Shown: piece after piece, positions 1 to 36,200 of the stretch
Numbering within the stretch: position 1 is the stretch's first letter
How the letters are laid out: each line of letters opens with the position of its first letter
Source of the DNA: Diatrype stigma
Taxonomy: Eukaryota; Ascomycota; Sordariomycetes; Xylariales; Diatrypaceae
DNA: 64,000 nt
Reading direction: 5' to 3'
NCBI GenBank assembly: GCA_022225965.2
Contig: JAKJXP020000085.1
Coordinates: 124,001-188,000 of the forward strand
Notes under the pieces: model-generated
Seen by the model: only the letters and a program-made list of their open reading frames with translations
What the model was told of the DNA's origin: nothing
Databases searched by the model: none
Program-made: the position numbers and the translations under genes

Positions 1-953
1 GTGCCCGTGTCGACAATCGCCCGCATATTGTGGGTGGTAGGCTGTACCTCGCCGCCATCCACCGAGAAGCTTCCACTAGAGAGCTCCCAATATCCTCGAG
101 ATGTGTTGACGGGTACCCATTGCAACTGATCCACGAACTTGTTCTCGTCGATCCGACCGAACTCGTAAGCCCCGGCCTCGTGCGCGTTTAGGTCGGCGGT
201 GAATACAGGTTCCAGAAGGGTTTCTATGACGTTCTCAAAGAAGGTGTTCTGACGCTCTGGCTTGATCGTGCTCAAGTGGTGAAATCCAAGTCCGAGTATG
301 CCGCTACTCGTATCGCTCTCGAAGAATGCATCGGAGACGGCAGTGGCCATCGAAACCGCTTGGCGGGTCACTGTTGCACCCCCTACGTCGACCGTATCGG
401 TGCCGACCGTTCCCTCAGCAGAAGATCCATCTCCGTACATAATCCGGAACGACGCGTCTTGCATGAAGGAAAATGTCTCGGACTGCGTATGGTCAAACAC
501 AGTACGACCATCGGTCTGATCGGAAGGCAGTTGGCTATTGAACACCCAAAGATCGGACGATCCGGTGTCGAAGTCCAGGTTCACCGTCTGTCCGCCGATG
601 TTGACCGGACATAGATACTCGACATCGTTGACGGTTGGCGTGGCTATGACAAATCCTGTTCCTGTCGATTCACCTCCGATGCCACCTTTGACATCGCGTC
701 TCTTGCTCGACCCGGACAACCCCCTCTTCTTGACTACCGCTTCGAGTTCTATCCCCGTGGTCTCTGACAGCAAACTCTCTTCCGGTACGCGATACTTCGA
801 GAGAGCTTTTGCTAACGATCGAGGACCATTACGGGCAGTGAATCCTGGGTTTCGCACTCGGTGGACTTTGTAACTACCTCGCTTCTGCACAGGTGTACCC
901 GAGACCAAGGCTAGGATGTCTACGAAGAAAAGTAGGCTGGCAAGTAGTTGCAT
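1..953 (-). CDS. Secreted pepsin-like aspartic protease, 3' part cut by window edge
   Basis: An uninterrupted 317-codon reading frame starts at the ATG at 953 and runs off the left edge. Residues 1-20 form a hydrophobic signal peptide. A basic propeptide follows, with Lys-Arg or Lys-Lys-Arg sites near residues 24-25, 75-77 and 84-86, which fits removal by a kexin or by autocatalysis. The first catalytic motif FDTGSSDLW is at residues 128-136 and the flap-type motif YGDGSSAEGT follows later. The second catalytic motif (VDTGT) is the very last thing visible at the window edge. These are the hallmarks of peptidase family A1 (penicillopepsin/aspergillopepsin-like secreted proteases). About 100 C-terminal residues are expected to lie outside the window. 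No intron is seen. It is transcribed in the same direction as the UstYa-like gene and next to it. A role in processing the nearby repeat peptide is possible but only suggested by position. Confidence 0.93.
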   Translation of the reverse strand, partial: MQLLASLLFFVDILALVSGTPVQKRGSYKVHRVRNPGFTARNGPRSLAKALSKYRVPEESLLSETTGIELEAVVKKRGLSGSSKRRDVKGGIGGESTGTGFVIATPTVNDVEYLCPVNIGGQTVNLDFDTGSSDLWVFNSQLPSDQTDGRTVFDHTQSETFSFMQDASFRIMYGDGSSAEGTVGTDTVDVGGATVTRQAVSMATAVSDAFFESDTSSGILGLGFHHLSTIKPERQNTFFENVIETLLEPVFTADLNAHEAGAYEFGRIDENKFVDQLQWVPVNTSRGYWELSSGSFSVDGGEVQPTTHNMRAIVDTG

Positions 954-2728
954 GACGCTGTTGCAACGAGCAGGTGTTTATTTGCGTGATTGGCCTCTGG
1001 AGAAGTTGTAAACGAGCGTGATCGAGTAGGCTTTGACGAAATCCAATAGTTCAATCATTGGGTTTCTGAGCACTACGCAGAAAGGGAAAAGCGATACAAA
1101 CGAGTGAACGCTTCGATATTACAGCTCGAAGACAGTAGCCAAGCGAGGGTGAGTACCTAGGTAGGTAAAATTGGGAGAAGACGAGAGATGCAGCAACGGC
1201 AAACGAGTGACAAGAGCTTCGCTATCGATGCTCCAGGTGACCGTGAAACGACAACAGCTCTCAGATTGTACTATGTAAGGGCTACAATCGCACAGAAAGA
1301 GGCGTTAGTAACAGACCCGAATCTATCGTAGAAGACCAACGGCTACTATTTTACATAAGTGTGTGTATAGTGGAACCCCTTTCCACGCAAAATGCCATCA
1401 GAGCGTGTCTAATGGATCATCGCCAACGGCGGAGTAGCCGTAGCGGTTGACTACATAGGAGGCGTTGGGGTGGTAGGTTGGGCCATCTCGAACGAGGAGA
1501 CCTAGCATCCCTTGGCTGAACATAATCTGCCAATAATAAGAAGCAAATCGGGATCTGCTTAAGTACGTGCAGAATCATTTACGTAGGTAGCAAGTCTCTG
1601 TCGATTTGATTCGTGGAAGCTACAGGTAGTGGGTGTGAACGGAAGGGCCATCGAGCTTCAGATTAACATAATGTGGCGTTTGGATGAGCTACGAAACGCA
1701 CTGATCACCATAGACCCGAAGTTTAAGGTTCGGGTGGATGGTACCATAGCTGCGGAACCTCAGAGGCCAAGAAGCTACTGCAGAGCACACGACTCGTACT
1801 ACATAGTATGGCATCGTGGCCCTGCTATTCGATGGGAGAGCCATTAAGATGGAGTTCCATGTGGCTTTGCCGTGCGGTTGAAGACCTAGGGCGGACAGGC
1901 AGAGAGGCTGGTCTGGCGGTCCTGGATCGATCTCGGATCCGATGCCTCCCCTTTAGCGGACTATATCTGTGGATAAATGGGCTAATAAGACGGTCACGAC
2001 TCGTGCATACTCCGCAGCCTCCGCATTTATACTCCACAGGTTCGTAAGACTGAAGCCACAGAGCCATTACCAACCCGTGGTGTGACCACCGTCTTATATT
2101 AGCAGCCTATCAGCCTGTGCCACAACGACTGAAGGATTGGCAAATCCGTAGCGGTCTGAGTGCTGAGGACCTATTACGTAGTATGAGAAGTCAAAATTGA
2201 CCTCTACAAGGTCAGCGGTTAGCCTGCCGTCTGTGCCACGTGGATCGACTTCCGTAAAAACATGATCTGCGTGGCTGCTTTGGGAGGTCGGGAGGCTCTG
2301 AGGTTCGTGACCCTCTTAACCCGACCTCCCTCATAAGGATAGAGAAACAGAGAGGTCCTGGGTTAGATTAGCCACTTCACATTGACCTACATAGTAGGCC
2401 GCCTACCGTCACGACGAACCTTACTTTGTACACCCAGACTGCAGTATCTTCGTACTGACGTATTCGAATAGCGCCTACCTGTGAGGTTCTCCCAAGTAGA
2501 AAGTGCTTAGCCCGATGCTTCATTCAACTGGTCATGGATCTCATGACGGGAAGGCGACACTATCCTCTGCTGACATGATGGTGTCCCGGCTACTGTTATA
2601 ACTATTGAAGAAGTCTTCGAGCTATCGTGTACGCAGGACTAGGTTTGGTCACCCATTGTTAGGAGAAGTGAATGTCGTCTTATGGTCACGATATCATTAA
2701 ATATCAATTGCTATCATGGTACCTGTCC
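954..2728. other. Intergenic region without a recognisable gene
   Basis: This holds the 5' flank of the aspartic protease and the 3' flank of the UstYa-like gene. Only short random-looking frames (under 85 codons) without domain signals or splice support are present. No RNA gene or repeat was recognised. Confidence 0.6.
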
Positions 2729-3812
2729 TCAATCATGGGGATGAGGGTTATCGTGTTGGCCACGATGCTGCCAGGCCTCCTCAATCTCCTTGAGCTCAAG
2801 GACGCCATCTGGTTTCTTCCACTCGATATATTTCGTGAGGTTGACCCCGTGTTCGTCGCGATACTTCTCTAGCTGCCGCCAGTCCCTGCATTGCTTGTGC
2901 ACGCTCATGTCTGGGAACGGGTAGTTTGCGTGTTCCAACCAATTGTACGTCAAGAAGCCCGCATCAGCATGGCATAGCAAGTTCTGCATCAACATATCGG
3001 TGCAGTGCCGCAGATGGAGCCAATGGATATCATCCCACGACGGCCTCTTCTCGCCCGCGCGACCCCAGTCACCGAAAGCCTCCTGTCGGAGTGCGTCTAA
3101 GCAGTGGGCTTGATGGAATATATCCAATGCGCCGACATACGCGTCGTCGCCTAGATGCCAATAGTCGTCATTGAACTTGGAGACCATTTCGGGATCCTTG
3201 CCCATGGCGAGAACCTGGGCCTTCGTCAGAGCAATGGGCCTCACTGGCTCGAAGCTTCCCCAGGCCGTCTCTGTCTCGTCCGTTCCCGGCGCGCCTCTCC
3301 AGGGAGAGGGGTGATCCCCGAGCCAGAGGCTTCCGTTCAACAGTGTGTCGGTCAATGGCATGTCGATCTCGTCGAGAACGGGGGCTGTTCGTAATTCGTG
3401 TTAGCGCTCATTAGCTATACGATGCAATGCCCTCGCCATGCAATGCTCTTGCTATGCAATGCTTTCGCTATAGCTCTCGCTCTGCGATGCTCCCACAAAC
3501 AACCCCGAGACTTCCGCAACGCAGAAACTCACTATATGCTGAAGTCGCTTTGAGACAATAGTTCCGGCCCGAGAACTTCATCCATGTGATGGCATACATA
3601 AGTATGGCGCCCGTAAACAACAATGCGTTGCATATCGTGAGGACCAGCCAACCTCTCTTTCCCTGTTGACCTCTGCGTAATGACACGCGGCTATGCCCAT
3701 TTCCATCTTCATCATCGAGCAAAGCTGCTTTGGAATCGACTGTCTCCTCGGCTCCCCATGAGACTGGTCGGTCATGGAACCACCCGGTGAACATCTGAAC
3801 CATACCACCCAT
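2729..3812 (-). CDS. UstYa-like (DUF3328) RiPP oxidative cyclisation protein
   Basis: Two exons (3812-3533 and 3384-2729) joined by a 148-nt intron (donor GTGAGT, branch GCTAAC, acceptor ACAG) give 311 residues. A cytosolic tail is followed by one membrane helix at about 54-77. Next comes the family signature TSAYTPVLDEID across the splice junction and an NGSLW motif. Two copper-site-type HxxHC motifs follow: HQAHC (184-188) and HLRHC (217-221). A Cys/His-rich tail (HKQCRDW) matches the family C-terminus. In ustiloxin, phomopsin, asperipin-2a, cyclochlorotine and victorin biosynthesis, such proteins catalyse oxidative C-O/C-C crosslinking or hydroxylation of peptide precursors. The ATG at 3812 was chosen because homologues begin shortly before the helix; a longer frame reaches 3989. 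It is divergent from the Kex-repeat precursor gene, an arrangement typical of dikaritin-type clusters. Confidence 0.92.
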
Positions 3813-5148
3813 GATCGTTTCGGTTTGGAGAGAGAACTTAGAACATGATCCTACTTGGAGAATAGCATCGAATGTGAATCGTGGTCGACACAAATCCAGG
3901 AAAGGCGGCAAGACTTTCTTGTTCCGAACCACGCGGAGATAAGATACGGAAACTAGCAGTGGCGGAAATGTCTCGCTTTCCGGAGGCATTGCCTGTCAAG
4001 ATACTAATCCTAGTTATCCCCTACACAGAATCCTTCAGGTGGAATCACTCCTCCCATACAAGGCCTGGTCCGGCAGAAGGAACCGAGATAACTAGAAGCT
4101 TGCTTACGATACAAACTGATAGACTGACCTGAACGGAACAGAACGGAACGGAACTGATGAGGTCTACCTGGTCCGCGTCGGCCCCGCTGCAGCGCCGCAG
4201 CTTCTCATGTGCTGTGCCTCACGCACTAACACGGATATCGTCTTACCCCAAGGTCTCAACGGTCTAGGCGTTTTACTGCTGTTCGATTTCAACGATGATT
4301 GGATGCAGGATCGTGAGATGGCACGCGTGAGATGGACTGGACGTTAATGGTCTTGGAGTTAGTTTACGTCGTTTAACCGTCTTTCCTTTGAGGCCCTGGA
4401 AGAAGGTGGGGCTCGCCGACCCCTTGCGAGCCCGTCAGGATGGCCCGGCAGCCGAGACCGACTTGCGTCCTAGGGATCGGGTGTGACAACCACGTCGGTC
4501 CTAACCTGGGCTCTCTGGATACAACGGATCTCTCCTCCTTCCTGTTTCTTTCTGGCGCCGGTCCACAGGATCTGTTAGTCTGTGGCGAGTATACGATACG
4601 ATACGATCGAATCATGTCGGTTTGGCTGCCTAGAGTACAATCGTGAGCAACCGAGCCGGATTGTGTGCTTTGAAGGATCGAGAACATGCCTCGAGTGCCT
4701 CGAGATAGACACGAAGGATCGATTGAGCATGCAAGCCAATGTAGGTTGCATGTGTAGTGATAGTATCACGGGGGTAGTTATCCGCCAACACCAGGGTCTT
4801 ATCGCAGGCCATATGGTCTCCATGCGAGTATCTTCATGCTATGTGGTTGCCACGCGACTGATGCATTGTCGTTCCGATCTGTCGGTCTCATCTATCCGCG
4901 GACAGTACTGGTCGGCCAGATCTATCGTTTTGCCGTGCATTATATGAGTATGCGTACGAAGTAGATCATCTATAAATAGTTGACGGTGTTTCCTCGTCTT
5001 CCATATCCCCATTGCTGTGTGCTTTGATATATTACCCGCCAATCTTGACTCTGAGCAGATCGATCAGATTCGTTGCCAGCTATTACATCACTTGCCCTTC
5101 CTACGTTTCCGCTGCCCTCGGAGCCTTGAGAAAAGACGAACCGTCAAA
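3813..5148. promoter_or_regulatory. Shared divergent promoter region of the UstYa-like gene and the RiPP precursor
   Basis: This 1.3 kb stretch separates two divergently transcribed genes and should carry the promoters of both. It contains a TATA-like element on the precursor side (4971-4978) and a pyrimidine-rich leader just before the precursor ATG. Open frames within it are short and unsupported. No transcription-factor site is confidently assignable, and no pathway regulator is visible beside it. Confidence 0.6.
4971..4978 (+). promoter_or_regulatory. TATA-box-like element of the precursor gene
   Basis: The sequence tataaata lies 171 nt upstream of the precursor start codon, which would leave a 5' leader of roughly 140 nt. 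This is a sequence match only. Confidence 0.4.
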
Positions 5149-5666
5149 ATGCTCTTAACTAAGCTGTCCTTTGCCGCCAGCCTCCTTGTCGGCGCCATTG
5201 CTGCGCCCGTAGAGAACCGTACGTTAGCTTGTTGATGGTACCGAAACAATACTTTACGATGATGTACTCGTCCGCTCACACAAGGCTTATATTATTCGTA
5301 GTCAAGCGTGAGACCGAGGGGCTCGCTGCCCGGGTAGACGATACCGTGCCCTACAGCCCTCTTGTGTTCCGCCCCAAGAGCGAAAGGGCAGAGATGTCCG
5401 CCCGGGGTGACGACGCGGTTGCTTACAATCCCGCCGTGTACGTCATGGAGAAGAGGGAGGAGGAAGTCGCTGCCCGAGGTGACGACGCGGTCGCCTATAA
5501 CCCCGCCGTATACGTCATGGAGAAGAGGCAAAATGACGTCGAGGCCCGGGGTGACGACGCAGTCGCCTATAACCCACTCGTATACGTCGCTGAAAAGAGG
5601 GAGGAAGTCGCTGCCCGGGGTGACGACGCAGTCGCCTATAACCCTGCCGTATACGTCGTTGAGTAG
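5149..5666 (+). CDS. Kexin-processed repeat precursor peptide of a putative dikaritin-type RiPP
   Basis: Two exons (5149-5218, 5302-5666; 83-nt intron with donor GTACGT and acceptor GTAG) encode 144 residues. Residues 1 to about 19 are a classic signal peptide ending in AIAAP, followed by a Lys-Lys-Arg-type start of the mature part (KR at 25-26). Five blocks follow. Block 1 (27-52) is diverged, with YSPLVF and an SER end. Blocks 2-5 share ARGDDAVAYNPxVYVxEKR; x is Ala, Ala, Leu and Ala in order, and the last block ends at the stop without KR. Dibasic Lys-Arg sites at 74-75, 98-99 and 122-123 fit Kex2/KexB cleavage. This architecture (secretion signal, tandem near-identical blocks, KR linkers, adjacent UstYa-like gene) matches UstA/PhomA-type precursors. 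The likely core is the hexapeptide YNPAVY or YNPLVY, with aromatic residues at both ends suited to oxidative crosslinking; the core assignment is inference. Confidence 0.88.
5388..5663 (+). repeat. Four tandem core-peptide repeats of 72, 72, 72 and 63 nt
   Basis: Units start at 5388, 5457, 5529 and 5601. Units one to three encode 23, 24 and 24 residues ending in EKR; the last is 21 residues long and ends at the stop codon. The conserved DNA centre encodes GDDAVAYNP. The spacer after each KR is the only fast-changing part at protein level (AEMS, EEEVA, QNDVE, EEVA). Confidence 0.9.
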
Positions 5667-6985
5667 AGGGAGAAGAACATCGTCGAGCAGGAGAGCGAAA
5701 CCCCTTAATATAGTGTCGTCGCAAACTCTATCGACAAGAGTAATTGAGCTGAGCTTCTGATGGAACACTGTATCATGGAAAACCTTACTTCAACGACAGT
5801 GGGAAGTAGTGGGTGACGTTTCCTGAGGGAGCACGTTGCCGTTGGCGGAGGTTTGGTAATCAGTGATGTGAAAGACCTAGTGACAGAAAGCCAAAATGAA
5901 ATGGAATGAACAAAAATGTAGTATGGATAAAATGCTTATTTACTGGTGCCTTCGAACCCTGTAGGCTTGTCGGCTTGTGCCTATTCACCTGTCGAAGCAT
6001 CCATGAGCCAGTATTAGCCAGCAATGCAGAAATACAACCTCTGACAGCTTACTCGCTCTTAACGCCTACCCGTAGAAATCCCATGAGGGTGGGCTTGAGG
6101 AAGGTTTTTCTTGTAGCCAACTATGGAGGGCAAGCCATGTGAATGCATCCATGGTCTAACAGAAACGTAGTTCGTACATCAATCACATCCCATCTCCTGG
6201 AACTGTTTGCCCAGGTGGGGGTATTAAGCGAACCTACAAAGCGTAGAACATACCGTAATCGTAATGTATAGCTCATCGTCTAGCCTATACTGGGCGATGC
6301 TCTGCTTGCCTTAAGGATACAAGAAGATCTAGCCTCTATCCGCTGACCACAGGCACAGCATATCCATAGCTCTGTCGGCCATAGCTCTGTCGGCCATCGC
6401 TCTGTCTTCATGATGCTGGCGATGTTAGTCGCATACATCTACGAACACCCATGGAAGCATTCCAAGCATTAATGCTCTAGGCGCTCTTTGTTACACAGCG
6501 ATGGATAGGTAAACGACAGCAAACTCTGTACATAATATTCATTATATATCAGAACACTTCCACGCTGAACCACTGTAGCGAAACAAATTTATTGGGCTGA
6601 ACAGGTAGGGTGGGATGTGACTGACAAGCCATCAAACACTTTCAAGTGAGTCACGTAGCAGCAACTTGTCGGTTTGGGAACATCACCTGGTGTTACGTCT
6701 CTACGTACTGGTGTTCTCAGATGTAGCTCATCAGTCGTTGCTGGTAGATATCTCGATATCTGGCACCCAGGTATTGATCAATAGGTATTTATTCATCTTG
6801 GTTTTAGGGGCTTTCGATGCGATTCGCCGATTCTCTTTACAAAATTCAAGCTACTGGCCATTGCTACGATCGGAGGTTCGCCTTTTTGAATCAAAAGCAG
6901 ACAGCCTACAACCAGTCAGCCGAACCTACAATACCTCTGACTTCAGATTAACATCACTAATCTAATACCAGGTTCAGATCCCAGC
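5667..6985. other. Intergenic region, no gene recognised
   Basis: It includes the 3' flank of the precursor gene and the promoter side of the membrane-protein gene. Frames here (up to about 99 codons at 6666-6965) show no signal peptide, domain or splice support. AGCTCTGTCGGCCAT occurs as a short tandem near 6370. Confidence 0.55.
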
Positions 6986-7942
6986 ATGACTACTCCAGGA
7001 TCTACCCTAGGAGACATTGAGGGCTTCCAGTATGTTGCTGTCACTGTCGCGAGCCGCTCTAAACTAGAGACGCTTCAGAATGACGGGCTATCGGACCTGC
7101 TGCCCTGGTCGGCTTTCATATTCAGTGTATGCGCCATCTGGATCGTCGGCACCTGCTATTTGAGTGAGAGGGTTCTATTCGACGCTGTCTACAGAGACAC
7201 GTACCGCAAGCTCGTTGATGTAGCGCGAGTGGATGGCCACGATCGCCGCCGCCGTAGCTTCGTCTATCATCACGTAGCCTTCGCATTTAAGATGTTGCTC
7301 CTCTGCGTCCTTGCCTACCCGACGCTTCGGCTCATCTGCCCGGGACCTGCTGGGTTTCACACCCCACTTGGTACAGGGGTAAGAATGGGAGTGGGAGTCG
7401 GGGAAGCAGAGCACCGGCCTACCATCGGCGACATACTACTCGTGGGCAGCCAACTCTACTGCGCATACTACACATGGGAGCTATGCTACCGCGCTGGCCT
7501 TGCGAGTTACATCAGCATACTGCACCACGTCGTGCTTCTCATCATCGCCCAGCTCGGCATGGCACTATCGGCGCGTCCGGAAGCGCATCGAGACGCGACC
7601 ATCGAGTTCTACATGTGCCTCATCTGGGGCGTGTTCGACCTCGTAGCCGAGCTTCCCGTGCACTTGGCCCTGATCCTCTACCGAGCGTTGCCCGAGAGCC
7701 GCTGTCGGATGGTGTCCCAGCTCTTGTTTTTTTGTTCTGGATGGTGCCTGTGCTGCACGGTGGCCGAGATGAGCATCAGCGCCTACTTGCTGCGGCGCTC
7801 GTGGGGCTTGTGGGAACCCAGTTTCCAGGTCGCGACGCCCGTCGTCTTGGTAGTCTGGGGCACCGCGCAGTGCATCGGATCATGGCAGATATTTGGTCTC
7901 GCCATGGTGGGATGGAGGAAAGTGGCCAAGAGAGGGTTATGA
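6986..7942 (+). CDS. Seven-helix membrane protein, TLC-domain-like
   Basis: A single exon of 318 residues begins with ATG in a reasonable context (ccagcATG). Hydrophobic segments lie near residues 41-59, 95-117, 148-166, 176-194, 206-232, 243-267 and 281-306. The central YYTWEL...ILHH segment (about 161-181), with its His-His pair at the start of a helix, resembles the TLC (TRAM/LAG1/CLN8) domain of lipid-handling membrane proteins. The match is by pattern only and no substrate can be named. It lies 1.3 kb downstream of the RiPP precursor on the same strand. It might be a neighbour of the cluster rather than a member, since known dikaritin clusters usually use an MFS transporter. Confidence 0.7.
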   Translation: MTTPGSTLGDIEGFQYVAVTVASRSKLETLQNDGLSDLLPWSAFIFSVCAIWIVGTCYLSERVLFDAVYRDTYRKLVDVARVDGHDRRRRSFVYHHVAFAFKMLLLCVLAYPTLRLICPGPAGFHTPLGTGVRMGVGVGEAEHRPTIGDILLVGSQLYCAYYTWELCYRAGLASYISILHHVVLLIIAQLGMALSARPEAHRDATIEFYMCLIWGVFDLVAELPVHLALILYRALPESRCRMVSQLLFFCSGWCLCCTVAEMSISAYLLRRSWGLWEPSFQVATPVVLVVWGTAQCIGSWQIFGLAMVGWRKVAKRGL

Positions 7943-8826: not shown

Positions 8827-9376
8827 CTAATCGCCCATCACCACCTGTAGGATTTTTCCATCATCAAGCTGATGAGCCTGCAAGCCCAACCTTTCACCGG
8901 CCTGTCACTACGCTGCGATAAGCGACAAATGTGGATCTCGTGTATTTCCATCTCCAGATCTGCAGAAGAATCGAACGTTCAATACCCAAAATACGTGTAG
9001 CCAGACAGGTACATACCCCAGATATCATCTAGCACCGTTACTGTCACCGTCGCACTCCATTACCATTTACCATTTACCATCCACCATCCACCATCCACCT
9101 TTGACCATTGAGGGCACGATTCATCGTCCACTTCGCTACTAGGTATTGACTATTCCATTGATGCGCCGGTAAAGCCCCCCGCAGTGCTGGCAGCCCGGGT
9201 ACTTCCCTGGTTATTGCTCCCGGCAGCCTAAGGTACTAGGTGGGTAGCAAAGAAGAACTCGGAACTAAACCCAGAACTAAACCCCGAGAACATCACGAGT
9301 CGGACGGGGGATATCGAAGTCTGAAGTCTGACGTCTGAAGTCTGAAGTCTGAAGTCTGGAGGAGGAAGCAAGCAAC
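7943..9376. other. Intergenic region with short simple repeats
   Basis: No gene is recognised. It contains cctaccg tandem copies near 8790-8830, an ATCACCGTC-type repeat near 8580-8610 and repeated ccatttacc/ccatccacc runs near 9060-9100. Confidence 0.6.
9316..9360. repeat. Heptanucleotide tandem repeat (GAAGTCT)n
   Basis: Six copies of gaagtct, one altered to gacgtct, end 17 nt before the start codon of the Myb/SANT-like gene and are therefore probably in its 5' UTR. Confidence 0.85.
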
Positions 9377-10846
9377 ATGTCGGACGAGGATGTCGAGCTG
9401 ACGGGCTCTACGTTGCTTTCGCAGCGCAACCTGGATCGACGCACCCCGCGCTTCAGCTGGAATTTGGCCTACGAAGAGACCTTTTTCGGATCCCTGTGCG
9501 AGTCGATGCAGCTGGGATACAAGGAGAACCACAGTTTCAAAGCAGGCGCCTGGGAGAGAGCAGCTATTGCTCTGCGGGACAAGCATGGCGCCTACCCGGA
9601 GAAGAGCCACCTCATCAACAAGGCCGACAATGCGCGCAAGAAGTTTCGCATGTGGAGGGGTTTGCGGGAGGATCCCGACTTCTTATATAACCCGGCGACG
9701 AGGACCGTGACAGCATCGGAGGAGGCGTGGAGGAAGCACTTTGATGTAGGTCCCTATAAGCTCTGGCTTCTTTAGTCTTTAGTCGCGGTGATGGCCATGG
9801 TATTAGTCACGGTATAACTGACATGTGCAACATTGTAGAAAGAGCCCCTGTCCAAAGCCCTCAGAGGGCGCCCTTTTGAACACGAAGAATTCCTGGAAAT
9901 CCTGTTTCCCGATGTCATAGGATCTGGCGGCGCACCTAAGCGAATCATGAAACCGAGACGGAGGAACCCGGATGGAACTCCCGTAACAAGCAGTGGAAGG
10001 CAAAGCATAGGGAATGCCTCCAGCTTAGGGTCTGCGCCGCCGTCTACGTCGCAATCCTCGCAAGCGCCCATCGATCCGTTGTTAGAGTCGAATTCCAATC
10101 CTTATGCAGATACACCTTCGCGACAGCCACAACTAGCAAATGCCCAGTCTACAGCCTTCCACGGCAGCAGCAACAGTACCAGCACTGTACCAGCCTCAAC
10201 GACCATCCCGCCTCTATCCTCTATAACTCCTGGCTCTACCCATAACGCCCTGACACCACCCGATGAACACGCGCCGTCGAACTCTACTGCGTCGCGCAAG
10301 CGAAACCATCCCGATCCCAGCTCCAGCGCACGCGCCGAGAAACGTCGAGGTCGACCGTCCCGATTCTCCGTCAACTTCTACGACAACCAATCCAACCTCG
10401 CCAACACTGCATCACCGTCACAGTCGCAAGCGCAGTCGCAGTCCCATACGTCATCATCCTATACCACATCCGGGTTCGTTCCTCCTTCCCGCAACCCCAA
10501 CAACGGAAACAACAACGCCGCATCCTCGCGCAATCTACATCCCTCCTTTCAGCCAAACGCCCTGTCGGTCGAAGACGGCCTCCTGTCCCTCGCGGATGCG
10601 CTCCGAGCACGTGCCCCGCCGAAGTGGCAGGAGCAGGCCGTCGAGATCCTATTTCGCGACTTCGAGAGCGAGGATGCGGACCTGCAGCTGAAGATCGCCG
10701 AGAAAGCGCTCACCGACGAGAATAAGGCGATGGTGTTCGTCAAGATGACCCCGGCACTGCGAAAGCATTGGGTGGGCCGGTTGAGAGAGGTACATCAACG
10801 GAACTTGGGCGGCGGGTTAGGAAGGGTAGGCGATGAGGCTTCGTGA
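9377..10846 (+). CDS. Myb/SANT-like DNA-binding domain protein
   Basis: Two exons (9377-9745 and 9839-10846), with a 93-nt intron (donor GTAGGT, branch CTGAC, acceptor GTAG), give 458 residues. Residues about 24-160 follow the pattern of the fungal Myb/SANT-like domain (Myb_DNA-bind_3 type). It opens with a Trp (SWN), then has a spaced helix with GAWERAAIAL, a KKFRMWRGL helix with Trp, a FLYNP/TVTASEEAW segment and, after the intron, the FEHEEFLEILFPD end. The middle (about 180-340) is a Ser/Pro/Gln-rich disordered region with a basic RKRNH...EKRRGRPSR patch that could act as an AT-hook or nuclear signal. The C-terminal 90 residues are helical and unassigned. Such proteins are probable transcription or chromatin factors. 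It is the only candidate regulator near the RiPP genes, but the link is positional. Confidence 0.82.
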
Positions 10847-13800: not shown

Positions 13801-14149
13801 AGGTAGACATAGCATAGCAAATATAAGCTCGCCTTCGCGAGCAGTTCCGAGCTGTCTTGCAGTGTCTGAAGCCCGGGCTCACCAAGTAAATATAATACGC
13901 ATCGCTCTGCCATGAATACCGTTCTTGCTTGGTGGTTTATCTCTAGACAACTCGACGACTATCAAACTCCCTAGACGGCGATCAGACTATCTCTAGACAG
14001 CTATCAGACTATCTCTGGATAACCATTTAACGGCAGTCTCGAGGCATAGACAAGTTGCCAGCAGACAAACTTCACGGAAGACACCAGAGAACGCATCAGC
14101 AGCACACAACAGCACACAACAGCACAACACACAGCATAAAGTAGCTTCA
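10847..14149. other. 3.3 kb gene-free stretch
   Basis: Only short frames without domain or splice support occur on both strands. Short ctatcagactatctctagac repeats occur near 13960-14010. The last 100 nt form an A/C-rich leader with a tandem agcacacaac run before the NRPS-like gene. Confidence 0.6.
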
Positions 14150-17100
14150 ATGGACGGAGCCTACGCGAATAGTACAGGCAAATCTGAGTATGGGAAACGG
14201 CTCGTGCCACATGTAATCGACACGAAGGCACAGGAAGTCCCCAACGATGAAGCCTTCACTATTCCACGCTCCGACGACCCTAAAGATGGATGGAAACCAA
14301 TTTCTTGGAAGGAATACGCCAACGCGATTAATTACTTAGCCCACAAGATCACGGAAGAATGTGGCGAGCCGTCCCCTAATACGTTTCCCACGATCGCCTA
14401 TATTGGCCCCAATGATGCTCGATACGTCGTCATCATGGTTGCCGCCGTGAAGGCTGGTTACAAGGTTCTGCTCCTCACATCCGGCCAGTAAGCACACAGA
14501 GCGAGATTTACTAACATTTGCAAACCAAGGCCTTGTTCATCTCTCCTCGCAACGCGCACGAAGGGCAGCTCAGTCTTTTTGCGAACACCGACTGCCGCTT
14601 CATCTTCGCCCCCAAGTCGCACAACTCCATGATCCAGCCTTGGCTACAGGAGCGGGACATGAAGGCGGTCGAACTAAGTCCGCTCGATGCGCTGTTCTCT
14701 CATTCTGAGGTGCAGCCGTTTCCCTACCACAAGTCGTTCGCCGAAGCCGAGTGGGACCCGTTCGTGGTGCTGCATACGAGCGGCAGCACGGGGATTCCCA
14801 AGCCCATTGTCTGCAAGGTCGGAATGATGGCAATCAACGATGCCTTTCATAACCTTCCCGAATGGCAAGGGACGAAAGTCTTCTTCCGCCACTGGGCGGA
14901 GAACTCCAAAAGACATTTCATCCCTAGTGAGTAGGCTTCGAGCCTAACCGTCGCGTTGAATTAGTACTGATACGGTCCGTTTTTTAGTGCCCCTTTTCCA
15001 CGCAGCAGCGGCCTACATGTTCGTGAACTCGGCCATATATTGGGAAACCCCTGTTGCATTCGGGATAGCGGAGAGGCCCTTGTCAGCCGATCTGGTCATA
15101 CAGTGCATCGAGAATGTCGAAGTCGAAAGTACGCTTCTGCCTCCGGTGTTGCTGGCAGAAATCAGTCACGATCTCGAGCATACCAAGCAACTAGCCAAGC
15201 TTAAGGTTGTTGCTTTCGGAGGTGGTAAGTGAAACTACGCCTTGCCCTCTTGGCCCTCGTCTCCCATCTATACACTAGAGCTTGTAGCAACAGTCCTAAC
15301 AAAACCAGGAAACCTCGACAAAATCGCCGGAGACAAACTAGTGGAAAATGGTGTCAAACTGAATAATGTCATCGGCTCGACAGAGTAAGCATAGGCATCA
15401 TCGCGATATACACAGTGTGATTGGTTGGCTAATATTGAAACAGGTGCTTCCCCTTTCCTCTGTACCATCAACCACCAGAGTTATGGCAGTATTTTAAGTT
15501 ACATTCAGATATCCTCGGATGCGACTGGCGTCGAGATGAGGGTACCGGTGCCTTCAATCTTGTGGTGAAACGCAAGAGCGAGACCCCAGGGATGCAAGGA
15601 ATTTTCTATACCTTTCCTGAGAGTAAGATCCAACCTCTCTTTTTTCTTCTTCTTTCCTTCTTTCTCTCTCTCTCTATGTCATGCTAGGAGCCCTCGCATT
15701 TGCCTGATCAACGACTCAAGCCCCATCAGGTCATTAGGTCCGGTACTAACATCGAATCCTTTCTAGTCGACGAGTACGATACGCATGACTACTACCGACC
15801 ACATCCGGAATTTCCCGACAACTGGATCTACTACGGTCGCTCTGACAACATCATCGTGTTCTCCAATGGTGAGAAACTGAACCCTGTCACAATCGAAGAG
15901 ATCACGCAGGGCCACCCGGAGGTACAAGGCACTCTGGTGGTCGGTGCCAACCGCTTCCAGCCCGCCCTATTCCTGGAACCCAAGAAGTACCCCCAAAATG
16001 ACAAAGAAGCCGAGGAGCTGATCGAGCGAGTTTGGCCCCGAATCGTTCTGGCCAACAAGGAGACCGTTGCCCACGGACAGATCGCCAAGGAGTTCGTCGT
16101 ATTGACGAAGCCGGAGAAACCGTTCCCTCGCGCTGGAAAGGGTACCATCCAGAGGGCTGCCGCCATCAAACTCTATGAGGAAGAGATCGATAAGTTCTAC
16201 GACGAGCAAGAACAAGGAACGCATACCGAGGTGCCTCAAGTCAATATAGATTCGGAAGAAGCTCTGGTAGGCTCGATACAGGATATCTTCCAGTCCAGGC
16301 TAGGAGCGAAGGGACTACAGCCGGATAACGACTTCTTCTCAAGCGGTGTCGACTCGCTTCAGGTCATCAATGCAGCTCGGTTGTTAAAAGCAGGCATTGC
16401 GGCTGCCGGCCACCAACTCGACTCGTCTGTGTTGGCCACTCGCGTCATCTACAGCAACCCGACCCCACGCCGACTAGCGCAATACCTACTTTCGGCTTTG
16501 CGGAGCGGAGGCAAGACCACGCCAGAAAGTGAGGAGGAGCACGAAGTCCAAGCTATGGAGTCGTTCTGGAAGAAGTATACGAGCGACTTGCAGCCACCAG
16601 CAGAGAAGAGACCCGACCCCGCGGATGAGGACCAGACTGTGATTATCACCGGTTCCACCGGCATGCTAGGGTCCTACATGCTCGACCAGCTGGTTAAGAG
16701 CCCCTCTGTGAAGAAGATCATCTGTCTGAACCGGGGCGAAGACGGGGGCGCCAAACAACAAGAAAAGGCGATGCGGGAGCGCGGCCTTGCGAGCCACTAC
16801 ATCGAGAAGACGGAGCTGTACTGCGCGGACATGTCGCGCCCGGACTTTGGTCTACCCCCAGCAGTCTTCAGCCGGCTCCTGAAGGATGCAGACCGCCTGA
16901 TCCACAACGCCTGGCCCGTCAATTTCAACATCCCGACCGAATCGTTCGAGCCCCACATCCGAAGCGTCCGTATGATAGCCGACTTCGCCACGCAAGCGAC
17001 CAAGCGCGTAGCTGTGGCCTTCATTGCGTCGATCGGCACGGCGGACCGTTGGGACACGACCAAGGGGCCCGTCCCTGAGACGCGATTAGAGTATGTGCGT

Positions 17101-17754
17101 CTCCCAGGTGGTGGATACGGACGTAGCAAGTTTGTCGGAAGCCTCATCCTTGAGGATGCTGCGAAGGTTGGGGACTTTCCTGCCGCCGTCATCCGGGTCG
17201 GCCAAATCGGCGGCCCTGAGGGTGAAGCGGGCGCCTGGAACCGCCACGAATGGCTGCCGTCGATCGTTGCCAGCAGCGTTCATCTTGGTGTTTTGCCCAA
17301 CCACCTCGGCGTCATGGATAGGGTCGATTGGACGCCCTGCGAACGGATCGCGAGCCTAGTCCTCGAGGTTACAGGCATTTTACAGAAGCGTCAGCCTGAT
17401 CAGATCAAGGGGTACTACCACGGCGTGAACCCCGATGCGATCGCGTGGCGTGAGCTTGTGCCGGCGATCCAGCAGTACTATGGAGAAGACCGCGTCCCAA
17501 AGCGGGTTGACACCTTTACGGAATGGGTCGACATTCTGGAGAAGAGTCAGACGGACGATACGCAGTCCCTGGACAAGAACCCGGGGGTCAAGCTCTTGAA
17601 CTTCTACCGCGGCCTAGCGCAAGCCTACGAGGCCGGCAATAGGCCCGTCGTTTTCGATATGACCCGAACGCAAGAGAGCAGTCCTACGATGAAGTCCGTG
17701 AAGGCCATAACCCCCGAGTTGATGCTGCATTGGTGCCGACAGTGGGGGTTTTAG
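14150..17754 (+). CDS. NRPS-like adenylate-forming reductase (A-T-R)
   Basis: Six exons (14150-14464, 14530-14926, 14988-15224, 15309-15384, 15444-15622, 15767-17754) sum to 3192 nt, or 1063 residues, a usual length for the family. The adenylation domain shows the P-loop motif TSGSTGIPKP (about 188-197), FGGG, YYGRSDNIIVFSNGEKL and a PRAGKGT motif with the probable catalytic Lys near 526. The thiolation site is GVDSL (Ser near 598). The reductase domain begins with the NAD(P) motif TGSTGMLGS (about 696) and has the SDR Tyr-Lys pair in YGRSK (852-856). The enzyme should activate a carboxylic acid, load it on its phosphopantetheine arm and release it as an aldehyde or alcohol. The substrate cannot be read from the sequence. 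The first intron uses an atypical AAG|GTTCTG donor. It was chosen because it restores the conserved GYKALFISPRN junction and the overall frame. Confidence 0.93.
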
Positions 17755-18308: not shown

Positions 18309-19562
18309 TTAGATGGACTTTGGTTTGGACGCAGTCGGAAACGCGAGGGCAGATGTTCGGGATAGACGTGTGGACCTCCCCGTGATATTGGGATCGGGGC
18401 CGATGAAGTCGTGGGGAAAGCCAATAGCGAACGGTTTCACACTTTCCAAATACTCGATCTGGGCGTCTGTAAGCTTGATGCTGAGCGCCTGTATATTCGC
18501 CTTCAAGTGCTCGATCTTTCGACCGCCCACGATGGGGAAGACGCGGGGTGCCTTGGATAGGACGTAAGAAAGCGCGATAGCCGTCACGGATTCAGTTCCG
18601 TGCTCCGAGGCCACCTTCTCGAGAGCCTCACTCATCCTGGCTTCATCCTCTGTTTGTGTAGTGGCGCTCGAGACCAAGGTGCGCAGACCTTCCCCTGCGT
18701 TCTTGCGCCTCTCGAGCTCCGCCTTCGTCTGGAACTTGCCCCCACCAAGGACATCCCACCTAGTTGGAATCCTATGTTAGTATGCAGGTACGCTCGTGGC
18801 TGCACTCGCCTGTACGAGTTTCTGCCTTCCGGGGGGTTAAGTGTCTATTGCTACTTACGGTGCAAGCGCCATGCCGAAATGACGCGCCATCGGGATTATG
18901 TCTCGCTCGAAATCGCGTTTCAATACATTCCACTGACCCTGATATATGCTGAACGGCGTCTTCCCGTGGTCGATGGCGTACGTGTTGGCAGTCGCTACAA
19001 TCCAGGCCGGCGTATCGGAAATGCCGAGGTATAACACCTTGCCCTGTTCCACGAGGATATGCAGACTGTCCATGATCTCCTTGACGGAAGTGGTATGATC
19101 CCACCAGTGCAGATACAAGATATCGATGTAATCAGTCTGCAATTTGGCCAAGGATTCACGGACACTTATATGAATGCTGCGTCGGTGGTTCCCTGTAAAG
19201 TTGGCAGATTGGTGTCCCTTGCCCAAGGCATGCGTCTTGTATTCGCCGGTAAATTTGGTTGCCAGGACGAGCGAGTTCCGGTTATTTCGAGCTGCCATCC
19301 ACTCGCCGATCCATGTTTCTGATTGCTCGTTGTGATAATTGTTGGCAGTATCAATGAAGTTCCCACCGAGTTCGAAAAAGGTGTCCAAGAGCTGGAAAGC
19401 TTGTTCTTTGTTCATGGAGCCCATGTTCTCCGACCATTTCTCTCCAATAGACATACCGCCGAGCTGCAATGGAGACACCCGGATGCCGGCCGTGGACGAA
19501 AGAATCCGGAGTCGACCCAACTCCGTGGGAGGCTCTGGAGCATCTTGAAAAAGGGTTGCCAT
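18309..19562 (-). CDS. Aldo-keto reductase, norsolorinic-acid-reductase/aryl-alcohol-dehydrogenase type
   Basis: Exons 19562-18859 and 18759-18309 (99-nt intron, donor GTAAGT, branch CTAAC, acceptor CTAG) give 384 residues, the normal size for this fungal AKR branch. Catalytic tetrad residues are visible: Asp71 and Tyr76 in DTANNY, Lys103 in ATKF and His152 in YLHWWDH. The C-terminal half carries a [13 protein letters not shown] segment and the [11 protein letters not shown] tail typical of NorA/StcV-like and AAD proteins. It is an NADPH-dependent reductase of aldehydes or ketones. It converges with the NRPS-like reductase, with about 550 bp between the stops. This makes the aldehyde released by that enzyme a plausible substrate, although this is inference from position and chemistry. 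Confidence 0.92.
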
Positions 19563-20267
19563 CTCGTCTGGTCGTGGGATCGCGCCGGTTCTATTCCCGT
19601 CGTATGAGTTCTATGATTCTGATGGTGTGCAGGTAGGGAAGTATGGGGTTTGAGTATTACTTATATAGTCAGGACAGTGTTGTGATCTATGGTTATCTTA
19701 GTTGCTTGGGCTATCAACGCCTTCTTGGGGGGTGGGGGATCCTGGCGACTATGTTGGTATGTATAGTTGATATACCACAATATCTAGCACTCCCCAGATA
19801 GGTCTCTTGCAACTGACACGAGCAGGGCATGGTTCTTATATTTGATTGCAATCCTACATTTGTTTCGGCGCTTTCGGCGTTGTCTAGAACTCAAAGCTTG
19901 TTGCCGACGGCGTTAGGACAATGGTGCGGGGTTATACGGGACATACCGTGAAAATAGGGGTATGTTGTTGCATTGCTCCATTATATCTTGCTTGAATGAG
20001 CCAACGTTGACTTGCAACACATAATCCGCAGGAGCTCCTGCCAACCTGCTGCTGCAATTACCGCGTCCGCTGTCGTCATCGACGTCATCGTCGTCACCGC
20101 TGCCATTGTAAGCACGGCATTATGGAACTCACGATCGAAACAACAAACTGCTTATTGCCGGTATCTCCTTCCATTAATTATCATCCGATGATCGGAATCG
20201 AAGAGTCCCGATCAAAGGTTCTATTGATTGACAGACGCGGACGTAGCTGGGTTTGGACTTCTTGTCT

Positions 20268-21305: not shown

Positions 21306-24300
21306 CTACAGCGTCCACAGGCCGCTACGACGCTTCCCCATAGGATAAATAACTAGGGCGGATAGGAACAAGCCGACGGTGATGCCTATGGCGATTTGAA
21401 TCATACTGGCTGCTACGCTGAAAACCTGTGAACGCTCGTGTTAGTATAGGTGGGCTTCTTGAGGTAGAAGGGGGGTAGAAGAGGCCTAAAAAAGCCTGGG
21501 AAGGCCTGGGAGGGCCTGGAGGCGGCCTGGAAGGCGGCTCGAAGGGAGGCCTGGGCCTCGGTCTGGGGAAGCGGAAGGGGCATGGAGTTTTTCGTATAGC
21601 GAGGGGGAACCGCCTTAGAGACGGCTTCGAAAGGACTTACCATGGAATTGGTTTGGTAATCGTTGGGCTGCGTACAGTTAGCTACTGCCAAAAACGGAAT
21701 CTGCTGCTATGGAAACTGTGGGCCAAATATCTTGGACGTCATGGGCGTCGTGGCTTAGTGGCATCGTGGCATCATGGCATCATGGCATCGTGGGCATCAT
21801 AGGCATCCGGACACATCCATGGGATTTTCAGAGTGTCGGAGGCGGAGCCGGAGCCAGAGACAGAGTAGAGCCAGAAACAGAGTAGAGCCAGAGCCAGAGC
21901 CAGGGCCAGGGCTGGAGTCGTGATATGCATAGGTAAAATGGGCTTCCACCAAGCCTTCTAGAAAGAAGACTCTTGGTACTACGTGGTGGGATCGATTGGG
22001 AGATGGGGGGTCCAGCAAAATAATGCTGCTAAGATGCTGCTGCTACAGGGACGCCCTTGCGTGCGCACTGTCAGACTAGACGGTCTCTAAATTCTACGGT
22101 AACTTACACCTGCCGACTCCCGAAGCGAAGTGGCTGTTTGCAGGCCGCTCACGATGGCCCCGCTCGCAGCCAGACTGCCGGGAAGTTGGACGTACACGGC
22201 GGGGAGGAGGACAGCGGCGGCGACTCCGTGTCGTACCCTGCTGTACAGGTTGGCCATGCAGCCGATGGTGAAGGCGCCGAAGGTGTAGGCGATCTGGGCG
22301 CTGGCGGCGAACTTCTTGCTGGTATAGAAATTGACGATGTAGCCGATCTGGGCAACTAGAATCATGGCGGGCATCTGCTTCCATTTAGCCTGAATCGTGA
22401 TGGTCGTGAAGAAGACGTAGAGAGGGACGAAAAGGAAGCTCCAGTACGGGCTCATGGGCTCGTGACAAGCGATCTCCGTCGTCGCATTCGGGTCGATCGC
22501 TCCGTACAAGGCGGTCCCGACGGTGATGCCGTATCCTAAAAACAGCGAGTAAATGATGGCGAAGACCATGCGGATCGAGCCGGGAACGATCGCTTTGGAC
22601 TGCAGCTCGAGAGCCGAGGATAACACGAGCCATCCGGGAAGAATCATGACGATGCCGCTCTGCGCTAGGGCCGAAAAGCAGAACAGGTTCCCGCCCCGTA
22701 GACTCGCGATGGCCCGTGCGAGGAAGGTCATCAGGATGGCGGCGCTGACTTCGAAGACAGTGGAGTAGGTCTTGGACAATGGCGAGATCACCAGCTGTAG
22801 GATCCCCAGGATGGAGCCCATGATGAAGACCACGGGCATGTCGACGAGCCGAGCGCTGAAGAAGACGGAGGCGGATGTGCTGGCGAGTCCGTACATGAGG
22901 ACGCAAAGCCAGACGGAGAAGTAGTCCTTGGCCGTGATGACAGCGTCGAGTCGAGTCAGCGCCTCGTTCAGGTCGATGACGTCATGCAGGACTTCCTTGT
23001 AAATCAGGTGGACATCCTTAAGCTTCCCGAGGTTGAGGCCCTGGGAGACGCGCACGATCTTGACCTCGGTCGTGTGGGTGAGGGGATCGTCGAAGGAGAT
23101 GATCATGCAGCCTGGGATGTATAGGTACTGACTGCTGACCTCCAGCATCTTCGCCGTCGTCTCGAGGTACTCCTCCAGCCGGTGCGTGGGGGCGCCGAAC
23201 AGCATGAGCGCCCGGCACATCTTGATGATGTACTTCTGGCGCTGCAGGATATCGGCGATGTGCACCGTGATCTTGGCCTCCTCGTCGGGCACGAGCCCCA
23301 CCATGGACATGATCCGGCCACTTGCCGTCCTCCGATGTTTGTACGCCGATGCTCTCTTACGCTCTCGCATAGCGCCGTTGTCGTTGGGATTGGCCAGCTT
23401 CGCGGAAGCCCCTACCAACCTAGCGAGGGTCTCCTGCGAGCGCATCTCCTTGTCTGGCTGCTCATACCATCTCCGACGGGAGTTGGGCGTGCCCGGCGTC
23501 CTGGTGCTGCCAGCCGAGGTGGGCGTCTCGAATTTGTTGTGCTCCTGGGGCATGTCCATGGTGTTGAGTCGATACGCCTGGAGGATGTTGTAGAAGACAC
23601 CACCACGGCTCTGTCTGTGCGAGGGGTGCACGTTGCCGGTTTCATGGTCCGGCTTTTCCACGATGGCGCTCTCTGTGCGGAGCCAGTCAGCCAATGCTCA
23701 ATCGAATGAGCCTAGAGATGTTTGAGTGCAAGTTGGTGTGCAGAGAGCAACGTGCCCTGAGCCAAGTGCCTATATACAAAAGTCTAAATATCTGGTCGAT
23801 TCGGGTCAATACGGAGAACATACCTGAATCGTCTGCGCCCTGGTTGTTGACCTGGTTCATGAATTGCCAGTGCGCCCGGAGGAGTTCCCTGGCCTCCGAC
23901 GTGTTCTCCGAGTCGCCCGGCGGATGAGTCGAACCCGCAACCTGGGAATGCCGGAAGGAATCCAAGGGGTCGCTGGTGAAGCTGGCTTCCGTCATGGGCT
24001 CCGATTGCGGCGACCACGTTCCACTCGGGTCGTAGATGCCATGTCCGTGCAAAGTTCCAGCCGAGTGCCTTTGCGCATCTGCGGCCAGGGCCTGAGCGCG
24101 CCGAGCAGCATCGGCTGCCGACTTCGCCTTCACCGGGCTGAGAGGGATGCTGTGGACATTGTCCAAGACCGAGTTGTAAGAGCTCGGATTCCTCGAGAGC
24201 GCAGGTCTGGGCATCCGCAAGCCAATCGGAGAAGTGACGCGCTCGTTGGGGTCCCTAGAGGTTGACCTTGCTCTTGGCGGCGACGACCTCTCGACATCCG

Positions 24301-33238: not shown

Positions 33239-36200
33239 TCACAGCCCTTTGGCGTTGATGCACCTAGCCCCATCATTCGTTGTTGACGTTGGACCATACG
33301 AAATAGGCGACGCCGGAGCCCCGCTCAGCGGCAGCTTCCAGATCTGGCCACTCCCGTTCTCCGATGCGTAGAGCGCCTTGTCATCGGAAGCATACACCGC
33401 GCCCCACGTAGTGCTCGAGAGTAGGCGGGGCACGATGTTGCCGTAGTTGGCTATCGTCTTCCACGCTTTTGTAGCTCGGTTAAATTGCAGAAGGAAGGTG
33501 CTGGCGTTCAACAGGCCTATGATACCGGGGGAATAAGCCACCGCGTAGAGATAGTCGCCACCGCCCGCGACGTACGCCCAGTCATAGATGGGGTAGTCCG
33601 GGGCTACCGCTACCGTGCCGGCCGAGATTGTCTGGCCGTAGGTCGTCGAGCCTGGCCTTAGGTCGATCTGCACCCAGTTGTTGCCGGTGTCTGTGCCCCA
33701 ATAGTAGCCCTTCTCGTCGACATCACCTCCGTTGATGGTGAAGCTCAGAGACCCGAACACTACAGACAACCCGGATGACGAGATACGGATCATATTTGTG
33801 GAGGTTCCCGTTCCAATTGCGCCGTAGATGTATCCGTCAGCCGCGTTGAAGCCAATCCCGTTGATCACGCGAGTCCCGTCGCCCACAGGATTTTTGATTA
33901 CTGTGGGAGTTCCGGTACTAATGTTGACTCTGTACAACACTTGATCTGAAATCAGGTAGGCGTATGGATCACAGCCAAACTTTGGTAAGGACTCTGCCGT
34001 GAAACCACCCGCGGAGCTGGTAGCTGGCGTGGCGGACGAAGTGGCCGAAGTGGCCGAAGTGGTGATTCTCGAAGTGGTGATGGAATTGGCAGGGGCCACA
34101 CTTGATGGAATCATGCTGGACGGGATCACACTTGAGATCACACTGGACGAGATCACACTGGATGAGATCACACTTGACGACATCGCACTTGATGACATCA
34201 CACTTGATGACGTAGGCCTGGTAGAACGTGTGGAGCTGATGGAATCAGAGGCTGATAAGCTCAATGAAAGAGAGCTCGAGCTCGTCGGTGCAACTATGGA
34301 AGCAGGAGTACTGGTCGAAGCCCCAACAAAGCTGGCCGTAGTGGTCGAGCTACCAAATCCTTGTGTGGAGGTACTTCTACTCGAAATGCCGATAGAGGAA
34401 GTGGTCGAGATAGCACTGGAGACGAAGCTACTTGAGCTAGTAGTCAGAGCAAGGGAGCTCGTAGTAGATCTCGTGGGCGATATACTGGCAAGGGTGCTTG
34501 TGGTAGGAGTGTTGGCTAAAGTTGCAGTTGAGGTGGCAATCGTAGAAGGTGGGCTTGTAGAAGTGTTGACAATAGTTGTAGATGTAGTGGTAGGCGTAGG
34601 AAGTGTGGTGGTTGTGGGTGAAAGAGCGGCAGATGAAATAACGCCAGACGAGGTGGCCCCGAGAGTAAAAATGGCAGAAGAACTTGTACTTGCGGGTATA
34701 GCACTCGTTGATATCGATGGTGTATTTATGGAAATAGAGCTAGTCGACGGAGTGAAGGCGGTACTACTTGAGGGTATGCTGGTTGTACTGCTGGTTGGAA
34801 TGACGCTGCTCGATATGATGCCAGTCGAACTTGTAGTAGAAAAGATGGCACTGGAAGAAGGAGAGGAGATGGAGGAGATGGAGGAGATGGAGGAGATGGA
34901 GGAGATGGAGGAGATGGAGGAGATGGAGGAGATGGAGGAGATGGAGGAGATGGAGGAGATGGAGGAGATGGAGGAGATGGTACTAGTTATAGTTGTGCTA
35001 GTTATAGTTGTGCTAGTTAATGCTGGATTGCTCGAAATAGTGGCAATTGACGCTGTACTACTATAGGTAATACTGGTTGGAATTGTAGAAGTAGCAGCAA
35101 TGGTCAGAATAGTGCTGCTTGATATAGCGCCACTCGAGATTATACCACTCAAGCTAAATGTAACGGAAGTAGTACTCGTTGAAGAGGTCGCTGGAGAGGT
35201 CGCTGGAGAGGTTGGTGAAGAGGCGATTGACGAGGAAGAGGAAATCGAAGATAAGAAGGTTGCGGTTAAAGATGTTTCTGATCGCGTCGTCGATGTCGAT
35301 GCTGATGTCTCAGAAGAAACCCCTGTAGTAGAGGTTGACGTAGGGGGTATGTTCAAAGAGGATGGACTTGCACTTGTAGTTGAAGGTATGGTTGGAGATA
35401 TAAGTGAAGAGGAAGAGGCGGTTATAGAAGGTATACGTGAAGAGGAGGTAGTTGAGGTTAAGGCTAAAAGGATAGAACTTGTCGAACTACTAAGTATGAA
35501 GCTTGAAGGGGTAAATGTAGTGAAGCTTGTGGAGGTGGAGGTTGAAGAGTCAGTCACTAGAGAAGTTGAAGAACCTGGCGTTGAAGAAGTGGTTGAAACG
35601 CTGATGAGAGGAGAATCGGTTGACGGGGTCGGGACAGCTGGTGAGATTGAACTAGTCAAATCATTGGAGCTTGTTCCAGCATTCCTCGATGTAGCCAGGC
35701 TTATTGTAGTTGAACTTGTTGCGCTTAGCATGCTGCTTGATGCGATGGCGCTGGTGGTTGCTGAATCTGTAGTTCTGCTCGACAGGGAAGAGCTGGATGA
35801 CTCCGAACTCGTGATAGCCGAGGTTGTTTTAGTTATAGTTGAGGTTGTTGTAGCTATACCTGTTACAGTTGAGCTGGATGATATAGAAATTGTTGGGATG
35901 TTATCCGATGTAGTGCTAATGGAGTCTGCTGTGATGCTAGTTGCAGATGCACTTGTTTTGGTAATGCTCGGTGGGTAAGAAACAGAAATCTCTGAGCTCA
36001 AAGTAGCGGAACGTGTTATCGCGCTCGTCGCAAATGAGCGTGTTTCCATTGCTACAGTGGAACTGGAAGACTCTGAATTTATGACCGACCCCACTCCGTT
36101 CGAGCTGGATAGAGTCGAGCTTGCTGTAGATGAACTTATCGTGGTGAAGTCTGATATCGATAGAAGAGATAATACCGTGCTTGCCGAGACTATGCTGGAA

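Follow-up and report, generated by a model that had tools for sequence, protein, structure and literature searches.

The DNA analysed here (the window: 64 kb, bases 124001-188000 of the 216-kb contig C85, from a genome of 48.98 Mb in 224 contigs) carries two divergent genes that share an intergenic region of 1,336 bp from start codon to start codon (3813..5148). One of them, on the plus strand (5149-5666), encodes a repeat protein of 144 aa in an intact frame interrupted by one 83-nt intron, and is referred to below as the precursor. The other, on the minus strand, encodes a UstYa/DUF3328 protein of 311 aa, likewise in an intact frame, from exons at 3812-3533 and 3384-2729. A previous sequence-only reading of this DNA had described a secreted 144-residue precursor with four near-identical blocks separated by Lys-Arg, facing a DUF3328 protein with two HxxHC motifs. 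Both descriptions held: the first is borne out by the gene model and the repeat scores, with the signal peptide judged by eye, and the second by a PF11807 match at 140 bits.

The precursor gene and its repeats

Exon 1 of the precursor (5149..5218, plus strand), a region that was re-found in its own genome, encodes a putative signal peptide, MLLTKLSFAASLLVGAIAA, which is clear on by-eye judgement and is followed by PVEN. The intron (5219..5301, plus strand; GTACGT...TTCGTAG) was picked on its donor among six splice options; the block region is identical in all six, and the first Lys-Arg pair, which lies immediately after the intron, is missing in the three options starting at 5209. Exon 2 (5302..5666, plus strand) encodes a degenerate block and four core blocks, and ends with the stop codon TAG. 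Upstream, a TATA box, TATAAATAG, is located at 4971..4979 on the same strand, 178 nt 5′ of the ATG, and the start codon context is TCAAAATG.

The four core blocks, placed by Tandem Repeats Finder and block comparison, start at 5400, 5472, 5544 and 5613 (ARGDDAVAYNPAVYV / ARGDDAVAYNPLVYV). Blocks 1 (5400..5456) and 2 (5472..5528) both read ARGDDAVAYNPAVYVMEKR, block 3 (5544..5600) reads ARGDDAVAYNPLVYVAEKR, and block 4 (5613..5666) reads ARGDDAVAYNPAVYVVE followed by the stop, all on the plus strand. Their consensus is ARGDDAVAYNP(A/A/L/A)VYV, with the ends MEKR, MEKR and AEKR and, in the last block, VE and the stop codon. Four Lys-Arg sites were located by hand (5304-5309, 5451-5456, 5523-5528 and 5595-5600). 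The previous count of four near-identical blocks was correct as far as it went; it missed a fifth, degenerate block, ARVDDTVPYSPLVF (5328..5369, plus strand), after which there is no Lys-Arg. All five blocks share the pattern DDxVxYxPxV(Y/F), and Tyr is retained in all five, the degenerate block keeping the first Tyr and having Phe in place of the second. In every block a single Arg precedes (G/V)DD. The core hexapeptides are YNPAVY and YNPLVY, of the general form YNPxVY. The computed [M+H]+ values are 2398.087 for linear EEEVAARGDDAVAYNPAVYVME, 2408.136 for linear QNDVEARGDDAVAYNPLVYVAE and 2237.072 for linear EEVAARGDDAVAYNPAVYVVE, and 726.346 for the core YNPAVY and 768.393 for YNPLVY, with a change of -2.016 per crosslink.

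Could such an array have arisen by chance? Tandem Repeats Finder gave it scores of 343 and 389, and a comparable repeat appeared in none of 200 shuffles of the precursor protein. Over the 15 codons compared, the four blocks differ by 11 base changes, nine of which are at third positions and silent. Eight codons vary silently, and the only amino-acid change, Ala to Leu, accounts for the two remaining base changes. The random expectation is 7.6-8.0 amino-acid changes, and the probability of two or fewer is 0.0003-0.001, depending on the transition bias, in a test that treats the blocks as an independent star and ignores gene conversion. Because nine of the 11 base changes are silent, the precursor peptide is apparently under selection, and this pattern of codon changes suggests that it is the peptide, rather than the DNA, that has been kept.

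The UstYa gene and its relatives

Exon 1 of the UstYa gene (3533..3812, minus strand) encodes an N-terminal tail and a membrane helix, GWLVLTICNALLFTGAILMYAI, the latter judged by eye. The 148-nt intron (3385..3532, minus strand; GTGAGT...ACAG) was picked among ten splice options. Exon 2 (2729..3384, minus strand) encodes the catalytic domain with the motifs HQAHC and HLRHC; its PF11807 score compares with a curated cut-off of 25. Across an alignment of 39 sequences (the window exon and all 38 of the relatives found), the columns of both HxxHC motifs are invariant. In the structure predicted from this alignment (mean pLDDT 87.9), the motifs lie on consecutive helices (93-108 and 124-144), which fits the arrangement described for the binuclear copper DUF3328 enzyme CctR of cyclochlorotine biosynthesis (PMC12435403).

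The best named relatives (55-59% identical, 92-100% query coverage) belong to Biscogniauxia, Hypoxylon, Annulohypoxylon, Jackrogersella, Hypomontagnella and Daldinia (Hypoxylaceae and kin). Partial relatives reach 82% identity over 68% of the query, with weaker matches in Diaporthe, Pseudocercospora, Zasmidium, Agyrium, Lecanicillium and Aspergillus. Because the top-scoring paralogue fragment within the same genome, on contig C19, is only 34% identical, compared with the values above for relatives elsewhere, the C85 enzyme looks like a member of a distinct, conserved lineage. The gene content of the DNA is that of a fungus, and the taxonomy of these UstYa hits places the host probably within or close to the Xylariales. 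A search for relatives of the precursor, with no known repeat precursor as a positive control, found none.

The neighbourhood of the pair

Under the rough assumption of about 18 UstYa genes in the genome, the chance of a random gene lying this close to one of them is approximately 0.0014. Does the pair belong to a larger cluster? Intron-blind six-frame searches found neither a second UstYa on C85 (23 PF11807 matches genome-wide, one of them on C85; 28 of 28 first-look candidates scored) nor a tyrosinase (22 PF00264 matches genome-wide, none on C85; 20 of 20 first-look candidates scored). Pfam was applied to 18 of the 38 ORFs of at least 130 aa in the window, with the precursor as spliced, and to 14 of the 34 ORFs of at least 110 aa in a 50-kb stretch on the left side; in both sets, introns hide shorter exons. 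Among the ORFs scanned there was no methyltransferase, and neither a transporter nor a tailoring gene was recognised within ~8 kb of the pair.

Three genes identified by Pfam lie within ~10 kb to the left. An aspartyl protease occupies window 3-977 and continues past the window edge; an NRPS ORF at L013:1920-7514 (minus strand), ~5 kb beyond UstYa, comprises one A, two C and two PP stretches; and an esterase is located at L013:495-1079. To the right lie a membrane-like protein with no Pfam match (6941-7939) and, by Pfam, a Myb/SANT protein (9353-9772), a reductase-domain protein that also has AMP-binding_C and PP domains and weak AMP-binding matches (13997-17751, ~8 kb away), an aldo/keto reductase (18312-19610, ~13 kb) and a ThrE-type exporter (22090-23697, ~16 kb). 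The reductases and the exporter could conceivably be partners of the locus.

Two further observations concern the surrounding DNA. L011:6768-7163 (plus strand), ~26 kb from UstYa, appears by eye to be part of an MFS transporter (SDRFRIRGIVMLCTLPIAIIGYAVIA) and has no Pfam match alone. At window 33242-41038 (minus strand), an ORF of 2,599 residues with only a weak collagen match contains perfect 9-base arrays (34863-34980, 39708-39796 and 40291-40413), and is adjoined by a DUF7908 protein (41026-42627).

The previous reading had listed a tyrosinase, a methyltransferase, a second UstYa and an MFS gene as missing, and had left a minimal system and a leftward extension as alternatives. The absence of the second UstYa and of the tyrosinase now extends to the whole contig; for the methyltransferase and the transporter it applies within the Pfam-scanned ORFs, with an exporter 16 kb to the right. 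Because the searches of C85 turned up neither a second UstYa nor a tyrosinase, a minimal locus is favoured over an extension to the left, where 50 kb were partly annotated. Within the limits of these searches, the locus has the appearance of a pair and not of a truncated large cluster.

Repeat precursors at other UstYa loci of the genome

PF11807 matches are spread over 15 contigs of the genome. On the 14 contigs other than C85 we examined stretches of up to 10 kb, covering ~3-5 kb on each side of the match and less at the ends of C77 and C79. In four of them (C19, C119, C34 and C154) a repeat precursor lies at a distance of 1-3 kb from the match, so that, with C85 included, five of 15 UstYa contigs have a precursor in the examined stretch. 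No further repeat precursor was found in 114 kb of C85 scanned in the same way. The YNPxVY core is absent from the four sister loci.

These loci differ from one another. On C19 (L018:3558-3956, minus strand), eight near-identical SEAIPFYP-KR blocks lie 1 kb away from the UstYa match that scores highest in the genome; tyrosinase matches are located ~31 kb away on this contig. On C119 (L021:7022-7516, plus strand; C119:35022-35516), a secreted precursor 1.5 kb from the UstYa match has 16 YAIR units, of which 15 read DYAIR; a single Arg, and not Lys-Arg, divides the units, which recall the YAI of the ustiloxin core YAIG. The C34 precursor (L028:1638-1931, minus strand; 3 kb from the match) is partial, with approximately four TRGGTIYR blocks and GDVEPM linkers, and no signal peptide was seen in the frame examined. 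The C154 protein (L030:1814-2665, minus strand; 2 kb from the match) is secreted and has long two-cysteine blocks (GDLDVGQCGTVDEAGKILARCVGFDASNAATVARR), unlike the dikaritin cores in the extracts of the literature available to us. Rows dropped as low-complexity or other-frame were, from the first repeat scan, window 5338, 5518 and 63467, L020, L021:7113 (the other frame of which is the real precursor) and L030:2032, and, from the second, window 56501, 62936 and 63467, L010, L018:3521, L020, L021:7013 and 7113, L026, and L030:1792 and 2032.

Because five of the 15 UstYa contigs have a precursor and none further was found in the scanned part of C85, these data support the idea that UstYa proteins and repeat precursors work together in this genome.

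Discussion

What might this pair of genes produce? Candidates for ust-RiPS, or dikaritins, are recognised by a Kex2-processed repeat protein encoded next to a UstYa gene (PMC7329392), and the precursor features of this family are present at C85: repeated cores, dibasic sites, an adjacent DUF3328 gene and tyrosines in the core. Because the repeat precursor gene adjoins the gene for a copper-type enzyme of a ring-forming kind, a small ring peptide is probably made. We consider it likely that this is a minimal, single-UstYa dikaritin-type RiPP locus resembling that of asperipin-2a, with the hexapeptide core YNPxVY and a predicted cyclisation. The previous dikaritin-type interpretation is supported to this extent.

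By analogy with its relatives, the precursor would enter the secretory pathway, where Kex2 would cleave behind each Lys-Arg pair and the pair itself would be stripped by a Kex1-like carboxypeptidase, leaving peptides of 21-22 residues such as EEEVAARGDDAVAYNPAVYVME and QNDVEARGDDAVAYNPLVYVAE. The UstYa protein would be anchored in the same membranes, its HxxHC...HxxHC domain facing the lumen. Kex2 is a Golgi protease (PMC7329392), and the membranes that hold CctR are those of the Golgi, endosome and vacuole, a lumenal position being proposed for its catalytic part (PMC12435403); the proposed partnership of UstYa and precursor is thus spatially sensible. CctR requires copper, oxygen and electrons and has two coppers per monomer (PMC12435403). 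With two copper ions and oxygen, the C85 enzyme may oxidise YNPxVY and link a tyrosine there to a second side chain; the most likely ring would be Tyr-to-Tyr or would run from Tyr to a beta-carbon. The flanking residues would be trimmed last, perhaps at the single Arg before (G/V)DD. We speculate further, and with more doubt than assurance, that the one UstYa closes the ring across Asn-Pro-Ala/Leu-Val to give a proline-bent cyclic hexapeptide, a form absent among the known dikaritins in the partial sources at hand, and that a UstYa lineage conserved across the Xylariales is paired here with a precursor changing too fast for homologues to be detectable.

The main rival to the RiPP interpretation is that the UstYa serves another pathway, for example that of the nearby NRPS product, and that the repeat protein is a source of secreted peptides that stay linear. 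The NRPS ORF is the second gene leftward of UstYa, with the aspartyl protease gene between them, and in cyclochlorotine biosynthesis the DUF3328 enzymes CctO, CctP2 and CctR act on an NRPS product (PMC12435403). However, the divergent neighbour at 1.3 kb is a repeat protein with tyrosine cores and not the NRPS, and repeat precursors also lie near UstYa on four other contigs. Moreover, the layout of this NRPS recalls that of the siderophore synthetases NPS6/SidD. We therefore regard this explanation as unlikely.

Far less probable still is that the repeat protein is an alpha-pheromone-like or other signalling peptide precursor with a UstYa neighbour by coincidence. The ascomycete alpha-pheromone core contains W/C, and neither residue is present in the C85 blocks. 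Pheromone precursors likewise have a signal peptide and Kex2 repeats (PMC6339444), but in the available part of the Umemura survey the pheromone-type repeat proteins, with three exceptions, have no DUF3328 neighbour (PMC7329392), whereas the C85 precursor adjoins one. Slimmest of all is the chance that the locus is decaying or unexpressed, as the degenerate fifth block, with its lost Lys-Arg and its Phe for Tyr, might hint, since both frames are intact, the splice sites are plausible, a TATA box is present and silent changes are in strong excess in the core.

How does the dikaritin-type locus preferred here compare with known systems? The C85 enzyme resembles CctR in its apparent membrane anchor and in its HxxHC(x)nHxxHC motif, CctR having been shown to be copper-dependent, and differs in that CctR hydroxylates an NRPS product (PMC12435403). 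Hypomontagnella, H. rubiginosum and H. pulicicidum are reported to carry an ustiloxin-like RiPP cluster (PMC8403587), and clan R2 of lichens has one UstYa homologue, with no repeat precursor found there according to the extract available (PMC12048977). The ustiloxin and phomopsin systems share with C85 a Lys-Arg repeat precursor, secreted in those systems and apparently so here, and UstYa-type proteins. In contrast, their cores are YAIG, YVIG and YVIP, and they include a tyrosinase and a methyltransferase besides two or five UstYa genes (PMC7329392, PMC6514808), whereas C85 has one UstYa, with no tyrosinase found on the contig and no methyltransferase among the scanned ORFs.

The closest parallel is the asperipin-2a locus of Aspergillus flavus, which comprises aprA, aprY, aprR and aprT and whose core, FYYTGY, is bridged by Tyr ethers (PMC6514808). 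It shares with C85 a single UstYa homologue, a Tyr-rich hexapeptide core and the lack of a tyrosinase among its four genes. It differs in its core sequence, and in having a reductase and a transporter in the cluster, while at C85 such genes were recognised only 8-16 kb away and none within ~8 kb. YNPxVY is thus unlike the cores of these known pathways, as had been claimed. The prior publication of the same core, named in advance as one finding that would overturn the earlier interpretation, did not come to light: neither core nor repeat was found printed in the full-text literature searched, a body of text that excludes the supplementary tables of the survey.

The claim of novelty accordingly holds for the core sequence and not for the type of locus. 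Umemura 2020 recorded 7,878 Kex2-processed repeat proteins, 1,758 of which had a DUF3328 gene at most 15 genes away, most often as the immediate neighbour, and Tyr occurred in 65.6% of those repeats (PMC7329392); the C85 pair fits the survey's description. If the ring forms, this pair would lend itself to studies of tyrosine selection by a UstYa enzyme, and the locus offers the dikaritin family a compact two-gene test case, with one oxidase, one precursor and a simple two-Tyr hexapeptide. The five differing precursor-UstYa loci of this genome also illustrate the diversification of such peptides within a single fungus. Set against the known systems, the core YNPxVY seems to be new, while the pair itself seems to belong to a known and abundant type.
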